Part shown: piece by piece, positions 42,032-55,520 of the stretch
Layout of the letters: every line of letters starts with the position of its first letter
Numbering within the stretch: position 1 is the first letter of the stretch
Assembly: GCA_037951105.1 (NCBI GenBank)
Contig: JBAMJV010010559.1
Span: 1 to 64,000 of the forward strand
DNA length: 64,000 bases
Source: Echinarachnius parma
Taxonomy: Eukaryota > Echinodermata > Echinoidea > Clypeasteroida > Echinarachniidae
Direction: 5' to 3'
Translations under genes and position numbers: made by a program
The notes under the pieces: generated by a model
What the model was told of the DNA's origin: nothing
The model's database searches: none
Seen by the model: the letters and a program-made list of their open reading frames with translations, nothing else

Positions 42032-42137
42032 CCTACTATGGGATGAGGCCACAGCCAACAAGTCCTTTGAGTCCCTTTCCCAGGCCTTCCATGGCTGCTT
42101 CAACAAACAGGACCACTTCAAAGTCGGTTCTTCACTG
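42032..42137 (+). CDS. CNOT11: CNOT11 exon 2
   Basis: 3' splice site TGATTTAG; one base completes a codon, then 35 codons beginning [15 protein letters not shown]; donor CTG|GTAAGT. It encodes the first helices of the CNOT10-binding N-terminal domain ([20 protein letters not shown]). Numbered 2 because a start exon must precede it. Confidence 0.88.
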
Positions 42138-45100
42138 GTAAGTCAATGTTGCCTTATGCAGGTGTCATTTGTATGACGCACCTCTTGACCCCCGGGAAAT
42201 GTGCGTCATGGATGCGTCATGTACTCCCATATTGATGACGCACAGTACCGTCATAGAAGCAAAAGGTCAGTCACAACACTGACCCATGTGTGCGTCATAG
42301 TCAGTCACTTTACCATTGGTGCGTCACAAGGTTCGTCAATAGGACCAATAGGACCATCATTTTCATGAAATGGTGTGTCAAAACCTTGTCTAAAAGCGCT
42401 TCATGCATCACTACCTTGACTATGAGTCGTTTGCTCAAGCCTTGTCTAAAAGCGCTTCATGCATCACTACCTTGACTATGAGTCGCTTGCTCAAGCCTTG
42501 TCTAAAAGCGCTTCATGCATCACTACCTTGACTTTGAGTTGATCTGAAGGCGTTCCATGGATGCTTCAACAAACAGGACCACTTCAAAGTCAGTTCTTCT
42601 CTGGTAAGTCAATGTTGCCTTGTCAAGTTGCCCAGGAAGGTTTGCCTAAGCAGGAAAGTTTCAATCTGTATCTAGGTGTTATGGTAGTAATATTTTTTTG
42701 TTTATTCAGGTGCTGATATTGAGTATTCCTGATCACTCCAACCCAAAGATTGACTGCTCTATGTCTGTTGTGGTAGATGTACAGATCAGAGCAACAACCC
42801 ATTCGCTCCTCTTTGCTCAGTTGTGTTATCACTATCTTTGTAAATGTGTCACATCTAGTGTTGTCGTTTTCGGGAGTATTTACTACCCGAGACTCGCGAA
42901 AAATTTTTTGCCGAGTCCCGGATACCCGAAATTTACCCATTTGTTTATAACACGATCGGCATGTCACGCCAGCTGGGAAAACATGTTTTATTCAAGTGAC
43001 AAACATTGAGCGCATTTATGACAATAAATCATCTTTTTGAAAGAACATGAAAGCTCTGGCATTCAACGAGGGGACTTCCCCTTTTTTCGGGAAATCGAGT
43101 ATCGATTTTTGTGCCCGGGACTCGACATTTTTCGGCGGGACCCGGGTACCCGGGACTCAGCGACAAAACTACTCACAACTGGAACAACTTCACATTTGTA
43201 CAGTAAACCATCTTATCATTAGAAGTAGCATTTTAAACGTTTGATCACGATACAAATCTAATTACAATCTTATCATTGTTCAGTCACTATTACTAAGCAG
43301 TCATGGGGGGTGTTTCACAAAGATCCTAAGTTGAACCTAACTCTAAGTTGGACTTACAAATTATGGAGATCCATTTATAGCCTTGGAATAAAATATATAT
43401 TCAAAAGCAAAAATGCAAGTATTTTCGTCTTTTCATACATTTTACATCAAGCTCATGAAATCTCCTTGATAGTAGAAAATATCAACATAATTAACATTTA
43501 ATGCCTTTTAAAACAACTTTTTACATTTATTTCAAAGAAACATGTACGGCTTTCCATAATTTGTAAGTTCAACTTAGGATCTTTGTGAAACATCCCCCTG
43601 ATCTACTGGTCCCCACCCCAGAGATTAACCGTGGCTGTTCTCAATCTCTCTTTCCTTCTTCTCTCTTCTATGAAATATTGAAAACGTGTTTAAAATGAAA
43701 TATCTCTATATAATTGTGTACATCTTGTGCTTATTCAGGTGTTGTTACTGAGTAGTCTTGATCTACTGGTCACGCCTCCCCAGAGACTGCCTGCTGTCTT
43801 TCTGTTATGGGAGTTGTACCTTTCAGCAACAACCCATTCGCTCCACTCTTCTCAGTTGTGTTATCAATATCTTTGTAAATGTGTTACAGCTGAAATATCT
43901 TCATATTTGTACAAAATGTTACATATTTTCATTGTTCAGGTGCTGTTACTGAGTAGCCCCGATCTACTGGTCACCCCACCCCAGAGACTGGCGGCTGTGT
44001 TTCTCTTATGGGAGATGTACCGCTCAGACCCCATTGGCAACAACCCATTCGCACCTCTCTTCTCAGTTGTTCTGGTACGTTTTGAACTGAATGTTGCCTT
44101 AAATCAGGGACGATTACCCACATTTTTGAGGTTTGGTTTGGTACATTTGAGCAAGAATATTCACAAGTTTTATTAAAGGGTTCCACCACCCAAAAATAAG
44201 ATTCTTATAAATGAAAGGTAACAACTTTAGTAGTCCATTCCATCAACAAGTTCAGAAAAATATGTTTCCAGAAGAAAAAAAATATATAATTGGAAAACGC
44301 ATTGCACCATTCTAAAGCATGCGTTCATGGGTCTGCATGTATGAAGACTATCTTTGTCCAGAGTGAACGAATCGTCCGCGATTCTATTGTCTCCAAATGT
44401 ACGCGTGAATAGAATAGGCTCACTCGCAAATGTTTGCTGCATATGGAACCATGAAATAATAATGGTTCCGTAAGTGGTGGTAATTAATTGCATTGTTTAT
44501 GAATTACACAACCCTTTGCAAAATGTTGGGTTGATATCACAAAACGGTACCAAAACATATAATTATATGTTGTTCTTTGCCTGGTGGTCCCCTTTAAGTG
44601 TACAAGGAGAAAGAGCATTAATTTCTCTAATATTTGAGCTCTCTTTCACACAAATATGAGCACTTGAAATGAGTTGCAAACAATCTATCTATAATTATGT
44701 TATACACGTATGAGACCAATCTCAACCAAATGTGAGATGCTTTCCGATGTAATGTACAAGAACTCATTGGTAAACTACATTTTGTTTTGATAATGTGCAA
44801 ATTTGAGATAATTCATCATGTTTGTGTTTAAAAGTGTTTATGTTAGGCAACGCTCGAAATTAGCACAGGCCCGATGGCCCGGGGCCACTAAAAATTGCTG
44901 TCGGGCCAGTAAAAAACTCATATTTCCAATGTTTGCTGGCCCGATCGGGCCACCAAATGTTGAAACAAAATTTTGCACAATATTATGGTTCTTATTGCAA
45001 ATTTGATACCTCACAGAAAATACTTGATTTGTGGTTTAAAAAGAGAGGAAAGAGGGGTCAATAATGAACAGTTTTGTGCGATTTTTTCTTCTTCTGCCGA

Positions 45101-54696: not shown

Positions 54697-55520
54697 CCAC
54701 AAATGCAGGGCTACAAAAAGTAATGAACATTGATTGAGTAACCCTACAAACCGCGGTTGCTGAAGTGACTCCTATTTTGTATAAGTCTATAATGAATGTG
54801 GTGTAACGATGGTGAAGTCCCCAAAACACTGGACGAGGAACAACTGAGACAACACCAGCCACCATCAACATCACCACTTACCACGCAACCACAAATGCAG
54901 GGCCAATAAGAAGTGATGCAGAGATATAAGAAACCCTAGGTCCTGCAAACGATAGAGAGACTGCTTTTTGTGGAAATTTATGAACTAGGAATTAGAAGCA
55001 ACAACGATCAGCACTGGAGGAGAGTTGCCTCAAGGTTACAACCTTTGATAGTGAGAAACAGATACAGCGCTAGCCGCCATCAACGTCACCCCCTACAACG
55101 CAGCCACAAATGCAGGGCAACAAGAAATGATGGGCACTGATTGAGCCATGGGCGTCGATCTGTAATTGATACCCATTCATCAGGGGGGGGGGGTGATCTA
55201 TTCATTCATCCCCCCCTGATGAATAGGTATTACGTAAGTATCGACGCCCATGGATTGAGCTACCCGTCAAAATTAAGAAGTGACTGAAGTTTGTGTAAAA
55301 GTACTATCATGTATGTGCCGTAACAATAGTCGCGTCCTAAAAAACACTGGACGAGGAACGGAAGCAGCATCACTGAGCCACCATCAATGTCACCACTTAC
55401 AACGCAGCCACAAATGCAGGGCAACAACAAGTGATGGATGGTGATTAAAGAACCCTTCAACACTCAGTTGCTTTACTGACACTATTTTGTCTAAATCTGT
55501 AATGAATGTGGTGCAACCAT
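54697..55520 (+). repeat. 3' UTR of CNOT11 with degenerate copies of the exon 11 tail
   Basis: The tail/UTR module (ACACTAGAC.GCGAGCAACAG..., CACCAGCCACCATCAAC, then CACAAATGCAGGGC and AAGTAATG.) recurs at about 54829-54920, 55048-55137 and 55343-55440. The TAA-CCACAAATG junction is expanded in the copies to CACCACTTACAACGCAGCC. All are non-coding. A minus-strand open frame at 54644-54877 is a shadow of them. Confidence 0.85.
55147..55252. mobile_element. 106-bp hairpin MITE with 8-bp target duplication
   Basis: CATGGGCGTCGAT...ATCGACGCCCATG arms, with an inner inverted pair CCTATTCATCAGGGGG-like; flanked by GATTGAGC at 55139-55146 and 55253-55260. An 8-bp duplication suggests hAT. It interrupts one of the CNOT11 tail copies. 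Confidence 0.87.

Follow-up and report, generated by a model that had tools for sequence, protein, structure and literature searches.

An unexpected feature of the CNOT11 gene of Echinarachnius parma is that most of its exons are accompanied by diverged copies of parts of themselves, lying close by in direct orientation. Self-BLAST and exon-by-exon BLAST identified such copies for 9 of the 11 exons. We interpret them as what is left of a dozen or so small tandem duplications, each a separate event, that probably took place in situ, a reading to which we assign a probability of about 0.78.

The window, i.e. the whole stretch of 64,000 nucleotides that was analysed (positions 1 to 64,000 of contig JBAMJV010010559.1, assembly GCA_037951105.1), carries on its plus strand a full-length orthologue of the housekeeping gene CNOT11 (CCR4-NOT subunit 11), with 11 exons and an open frame (Table 1). 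Exons 2–11 join into a single open frame with AG/GT borders, and their translation is 92% identical, over 99% of the query, to the Diadema antillarum protein, which ranked best among the 120 proteins listed, followed by those of two sea stars, a crinoid and an acorn worm. The Pfam CNOT11 domain PF10155 is present with 177.2 bits (cut-off 25.9; E=1.8e-52), and the protein start encoded by exon 1, MDQGLSKKDSVNLT, is similar to the N-terminus of D. antillarum CNOT11. In four other open frames of the window Pfam detected no domain, and a partial search of the window found no second multi-exon gene for comparison.

All exon copies named in the original prediction were recovered. Its count of nine exons with copies stands, but the gene has 11 exons rather than ten, as exon 1 had been missed; nor is exon 10 the only exon free of copies, since BLAST found no local copy of exon 1 either. 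These two exons, with 44 coding nt and 51 nt, are the shortest and most AT-rich of the gene. Single copies exist for exons 2, 4, 5, 6 and 9, while exon 7 has two, exon 3 three and exon 8 five; exon 11 has one copy of its 5' end and three of its tail. The distance from exon to copy, start to start, is 114–1230 bp for the 17 copies that could be aligned. One splice site is kept in 15 of these 17, none in the remaining two (the exon 3 fragment and an exon 11 tail copy), and both in not a single case. On the minus strand, a search with exons 2–11 and 50 bp to either side (low-complexity filter on, E up to 0.05) gave a single match overlapping an exon, 17 nt long and located in exon 7.

Table 1. 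Exons of CNOT11 and their local copies, in positions of the window.
Feature	Position	Strand	Remark
Exon 1, coding part (MDQGLSKKDSVNLT..)	37980..38023	+	GC 0.36; followed by gtaacg; copy-free locally
Exon 2	42032..42137	+	
Intronic 56-bp tandem array, 2.8 copies	42384..42539	+	between exon 2 and its copy
Exon 2 copy, 3' part and 18 bp of intron with donor GT	42548..42621	+	downstream; 94.6% identical
Exon 3 far copy	42696..42856	+	exonic part to 42824; acceptor present, donor absent
Exon 3 internal fragment, 29 nt	43596..43624	+	without splice site
Exon 3 near copy, intron and acceptor	43678..43859	+	195-bp period; without donor
Exon 3	43940..44074	+	
Exon 4 copy, 5' end with acceptor	46382..46425	+	upstream
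Exon 4	46608..46718	+	
Exon 5	47541..47710	+	
Exon 5 copy, 3' part with donor GT	47916..48044	+	downstream; 94.6% identical
Exon 6 copy, 5' part, intron and acceptor	48365..48524	+	upstream; 92% identical
Exon 6	48694..48826	+	
Exon 7 upstream copy, 5' part with acceptor	49908..50027	+	141-bp period; stop codon inside
Exon 7	50071..50277	+	
Exon 7 downstream copy, 3' part with donor GT	50380..50471	+	
Exon 8 copies of 5' part, five	50616..51177	+	upstream; 114-bp array shared with exon 8
Exon 8	51207..51356	+	
Exon 9	52697..52801	+	
Exon 9 copy, 3' part and 10 bp of intron	52879..52948	+	downstream; 90% identical
Exon 10	53696..53746	+	51 nt; GC 0.37; copy-free
Exon 11 copy, 5' end with acceptor	54355..54399	+	upstream
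Exon 11, up to stop codon	54568..54696	+	
Exon 11 tail / 3' region copies, three	54822..55526	+	downstream; no splice site in the one aligned

Probable traces of tandem duplication in place

We favour a process where each event would have had one breakpoint inside an exon or shortly beyond its end, and a second in the adjoining intron or 3' region, leaving the full exon intact with a truncated copy beside it. At exon 3, at exon 8 and at the tail of exon 11, growth into arrays may then have added three, five and three copies, respectively. In at least some units decay would have gone further in the intronic than in the exonic part, leaving copies that now appear exon-sized and spaced. Replication slippage, template switching or end-joining of staggered breaks may have initiated the events, which were probably independent of each other. 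For most of the sets there is good support for this class of mechanism, small tandem duplications recurring in situ.

Copies of the 5' side of an exon lie upstream (exons 3, 4, 6 and 8, the upstream copy of exon 7, the 5' copy of exon 11), and copies of the 3' side lie downstream (exons 2, 5 and 9, the downstream copy of exon 7, the tail of exon 11), such that the side rule of in-situ tandem duplication is obeyed in 11 of 11 sets; the 29-nt fragment of exon 3 holds neither exon end. The original prediction had described the copies as tandem duplications at the DNA level, and this description agrees with their direct orientation, their local position and the side rule. Across the sets, the period from the exon to its nearest copy is 114–466 bp.

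Nine spacers were compared with the expected rest of the duplication unit. Matches were found for exon 4, the downstream copy of exon 7 and both exon 11 units, where none or one of 300 shuffles was as good (uncorrected for the number of tests, nine), the least secure of the four being the upstream spacer of exon 11, as its match is partly an ATC-type repeat. The exon 4 unit was once longer, with matching intron parts at 46306–46381 and 46439–46508. At the near copy of exon 3 (13 bp) and the upstream copy of exon 7 (21 bp) the spacers are too short to judge. The spacers of exons 2, 6 and 9 showed no homology to the expected place in this comparison, so that filler acquired at birth or later insertions must be invoked there. 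The exon 8 array is contiguous, with six units of 114 bp including exon 8 itself. As the far and near copies of exon 3 have downstream sequence in common (42696–42856 aligning with 43725–43891), we take the far copy to be an older unit of the array to which the near copy belongs; it may later have been displaced by insertions, for example by the inverted-repeat stretch at 43305–43603.

Within the aligned stretches, the flanks are about as well kept as the exons, with 855 of 963 exonic and 236 of 271 flanking positions identical when four of the exon 8 copies are left out, and 1171 of 1303 and 433 of 471 for all 17 aligned copies. The faster decay of introns that the spacers suggest is barely visible in these stretches, where the trimming of local alignments may hide it. 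Junctions were inspected by eye: ATCAAATT occurs near both ends of the downstream copy of exon 7, and no microhomology motif common to the junctions was seen. Retro-insertion was rejected as a source of the copies in view of the intron sequence that they include, their direct orientation and their adjacency.

Concentration of copies at exons

A local pair was defined as a direct match at most 600 bp apart and scoring at least 45 bits, with rDNA and simple repeats masked. By this measure, 9 of the 10 exons from 2 to 11 are matched, while random segments reach 0.87 ± 0.88 and at most 4 in 2000 sets; at 60 bits it is 8 of 10, compared to 0.62 ± 0.77 (maximum 4). Local duplications cover 64% of exon sequence, 12% of non-exonic sequence in the gene and 4% outside it, i.e. 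exonic coverage is 5.2 times that of the rest of the gene and 16 times that outside, and these coverage values are the same with the BLAST low-complexity filter off. When interspersed repeats were masked in addition and exon 1 was added, coverage was 62%, 11% and 2%, and 9 of 11 exons were matched, compared to 1.32 ± 1.07 (maximum 6) for random segments in the gene and 0.60 ± 0.75 (maximum 4) for those from the whole window. None of 5000 random sets had nine matches, in the gene as in the window. Dilution by repeats was considered as a cause of the low non-exonic figure and rejected, as coverage was still 11% under this mask, which is crude and takes in 40% of 38024–54567, including most of intron 1.

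The excess of copies at exons over chance is statistically strong for CNOT11 alone, and the main limit on these statistics is that the sample is a single gene, selected for its striking look. The original prediction had proposed such a concentration, naming arbitrary non-exonic segments as the counter-check, and these are not copied equally often. It had further proposed an unusual process acting at exon/intron borders. The exon excess is indeed odd, but a special role of the border goes beyond the evidence; a duplication of 100–300 bp that overlaps an exon of ~130 bp and spares it will usually straddle a border anyway.

The most serious alternative is that small tandem duplications arise uniformly and remain recognisable only where they touch slowly evolving exons. 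In a duplicated exon decay is mainly one-sided, in duplicated intron sequence two-sided. Several observations point in this direction: in the exon 4, downstream exon 7 and both exon 11 units the intronic part is weakly preserved while the exonic part is plain, and 18 non-exonic local pairs exist (among them 46306/46439, part of the exon 4 unit, and four pairs within the tail / 3' region of exon 11). Non-exonic segments are also matched more often when close to exons or rich in GC. Local duplications were found in 14.5% of intronic 130-bp segments overall and in 20.7% of those at most 250 bp from an exon edge; for non-exonic 130-bp segments the figure is 15% at a GC content of 0.47–0.70 and 6% below 0.35, an effect of about 2.5-fold between the lowest and highest class.

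Such uniform duplication was simulated in three models comprising conserved exons, neutral copies, substitutions, small indels, large deletions and insertions, turnover and tandem duplication. All three used exons 2–11, shuffled introns and a single distribution of unit lengths, without gene conversion; in the first the locus grows at high rates, in the second and third its length is held constant. Simulated loci were scored by nearly the same BLAST rule, with the low-complexity filter off. At uniform rates, the ratio of exonic to non-exonic coverage was 0.7–1.5, 0.8–1.0 and 0.77–0.95 in the first, second and third model, compared to the observed 5.2. Nine or more exons were matched in 0 of 240 uniform runs of the second model and in 3 of 480 of the third, and these three all fell within the 160 runs of highest rate, with mean non-exonic coverage of 0.53 and 0.40; at the highest rate of the first model some runs reached 9 or 10 exons, at a mean non-exonic coverage of 0.60–0.66. 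In the 183 of 480 uniform third-model runs with a non-exonic coverage of at most 0.16, no more than 6 of 10 exons were matched. As the uniform simulations fall far below the observed ratio, detectability is insufficient, given the model, to produce the CNOT11 pattern, and we consider it unlikely that the concentration at exons is a matter of ascertainment only.

A bias towards exons was also built into the simulations. Nine or more exons were matched in 0 of 96 runs with a 3-fold bias (second model) and in 0 of 40 with a 5-fold bias (third model). A 10-fold bias gave 18 of 96 such runs in the second model, all at the higher rate and with a mean non-exonic coverage of 0.22–0.26, and 0 of 40 in the third. 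With a 20-fold bias (third model) the mean was 8.05 exons, 13 of 40 runs had nine or more and the ratio was 3.4; with a 30-fold bias (second model) the means were 8.67 and 8.17 exons, 22 of 48 runs had nine or more and the ratios were 3.4 and 3.6. Coverage ratios of the biased runs, 1.6–3.6 overall, all stay under the observed 5.2, with the 20–30-fold biases coming nearest. The cause of the exon preference lies outside our explanation by tandem duplication in situ; candidates are the GC content of exons, nucleosomes or methylation, and it may also stem from homology-limited repair between alleles with unlike introns.

Age and coding state of the copies

Among the 17 copies, exonic divergence is lowest in the 29-nt fragment of exon 3 (0.035) and the copy of exon 5 (0.043) and highest in that of exon 4 (0.242, over 29 nt), a range which suggests that the duplication events were spread in time. 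This spread supports the earlier proposal of many separate events. All three tail copies contain 15 nt that are missing from the functional exon 11, whose stop codon lies at that place; the tail of Diadema CNOT11 is longer than that of CNOT11 in the window. Most simply, the tail copies would be older than the loss of these 15 nt from exon 11.

With exon 8 excluded, 55 synonymous and 42 nonsynonymous differences separate 11 copies from their exons (57% synonymous). Random change would give a synonymous share of 29% (0.288), and a dead copy compared with a live exon ~45% (0.447, derived by hand). When the far copy of exon 3 is excluded together with the exon 8 copies, 42 of 75 differences are synonymous, a weak excess over the expectation for dead copies (one-sided p=0.03 against 0.447). 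Two of 16 copies contain stop codons and four of 16 have gaps in their alignments. An in-frame TGA follows just past the truncated exon in 4 of the 5 exon 8 copies, while the first exon 8 copy had no in-frame stop within the 39 codons read.

Duplicated exons may also appear in an assembly when divergent haplotypes of a heterozygous animal are joined, and false duplications, including false exon gains, have been documented in other assemblies according to the part of that study available to us (PMC9516828). The copies of exon 5 (exonic part) and exon 2 are indeed allele-like in that their differences are mostly synonymous (4:0 and 3:1). Joined haplotypes do not readily account for the stops in the upstream copy of exon 7 and the far copy of exon 3, for the gaps in the near and far copies of exon 3, in exon 6 and in the first exon 8 copy, or for divergence as high as 0.24; nor for the six-unit array at exon 8, the truncations within exons and the side rule (11/11), and the window is free of N. 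Stops, indels and a divergence of 4–24% speak for repeated events instead of joined haplotypes, and we regard an assembly artefact as very improbable.

It is most doubtful that the copies are retained as functional parts, i.e. as decoy splice sites, poison exons or cassette exons, as none of the 17 aligned copies has both splice sites, the reading of 4 of 5 exon 8 copies ends at an in-frame TGA and two other copies contain stops; this holds even though every one of the 15 aligned copies with a splice site has retained its AG or GT (five of the 15 belong to the single exon 8 array, while the exon 9 donor is altered right after the GT) and the synonymous share (55/97 without the exon 8 copies) is somewhat above ~45%. 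The copies look inert and presumably lack a function. To judge from their sequences, neutral debris of differing ages fits better than either misjoined haplotypes or alternative exons.

Wider reading and comparison with known systems

Sea urchins are highly polymorphic. A lineage-wide reading, which we consider speculative and rather improbable, is that germline repair or replication template switching relies on exons as the main stretches of good homology between alleles with introns set apart by insertions and deletions. If so, small duplications would arise at exons throughout the genome, often derived from the other allele. Copies would then be expected at most exons of many genes, initially with synonymous differences, and the bias of exons over introns would be of an order of magnitude. 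Should the pattern be general, small tandem duplications would in some animals be supplied mainly at exons instead of evenly, with consequences for the origin of alternative exons, new introns and splice-site competitors; a pattern restricted to CNOT11 would be a curiosity of local cause.

Our literature search, in which subscription journals were thinly covered, found, among titles and opening lines of abstracts, none on a gene with most of its exons partially copied, and no sea urchin figure for in-gene exon homologues. Internal gene duplication was reportedly treated by Gao & Lynch in 2009, and a survey of tandemly duplicated exons from 2002 is said to be that of Letunic et al. The 2002 survey found tandemly duplicated exons in ~10% of animal genes, as cited by Ivanov & Pervouchine 2022 (PMC9013439). 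In the sections of the latter paper available to us, ~2% of human, 0.08% of fly and 0.06% of worm exonic nucleotides have an in-gene homologue at 80% identity; as these values come from exonerate searches over the whole gene and the 62% for CNOT11 from a search for local duplications, the figures are not like for like. Tandem exon duplication as described there likewise yields exon-like copies in the same gene, with each exon searched against its gene, but mostly involves complete exons that are often mutually exclusive, while the CNOT11 copies never have both splice sites.

Intron gain by tandem genomic duplication, as outlined in the accessible text of PMC3443670, similarly involves small intragenic segmental duplications that carry splice-site sequence. 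In contrast, CNOT11 gains no intron, as its copies lie within introns already present or in the 3' region. In dmrt1 of Solea senegalensis, exons of one gene have likewise been duplicated in place, one of them being truncated, but what the available part of that report (PMC7605655) describes is a single duplication over exons I–III, while CNOT11 has separate small ones at most exons.

Internal tandem duplications of FLT3 are short, arise in situ and can overlap an exon/intron border; they are, however, somatic, selected and restricted to one exon region, unlike those of CNOT11. Small polymorphic segmental duplications in Drosophila, most of which are <500 bp, resemble the CNOT11 copies both in size and in their excess in coding sequence and 3'UTR: their marker sites are over-represented there and under-represented in introns, one cause proposed by the authors being that coding duplicates diverge faster (PMC6380325, from the portion available). 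The Drosophila duplications differ in being a population polymorphism, detected via pseudo-heterozygous sites, and that portion of the report describes no gene copied at nearly all of its exons.

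Repeats and the ribosomal RNA unit

Repeats, open frame and rRNA unit in the window
Feature	Position	Strand	Details
Tandem array	1205-1706		15-bp unit, 33 copies
Open frame	8808-10577		uninterrupted, ~590 aa, start MEFVVFNTC..
rRNA unit	26688-31055	minus	SSU, 5.8S and partial LSU matches
Inverted repeat (arms)	46732-46874 and 49302-49444		94% complementary over 143 nt
Further inverted-repeat stretches	43305-43603 and 48857-49247
Non-exonic tandem pair	58197-58625		~220 bp, 88% identical

Several reading frames are open in the 15-bp array, and the tandem pair has the top score among the non-exonic local pairs (direct copies close together) that were counted. 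The arms of the inverted repeat may both be young insertions of a single small transposon. The rRNA unit is apparently incomplete, with an SSU match at 29811-31055, the 5.8S at 29362-29501 and a partial LSU reaching down to 26688; this region also carries a 566-bp direct duplication (26195-26725 / 28104-28669, 90% identity).

The long open frame

Judged by eye, the predicted product looks like an Ig-type single-pass membrane protein; a Pfam search of the frame at E 0.01 gave zero matches, and no local duplications of at least 35 bits were found inside it.

The end of CNOT11 exon 11

At 54689-54740, all three tail copies (diverged direct copies of the exon 11 tail and 3' region, lying downstream) are seen to have kept 15 nt that are absent from the functional exon, the stop of which sits at the site of the absent sequence. 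The CNOT11 protein of Diadema antillarum has a longer tail than that encoded by exon 11 in the window.
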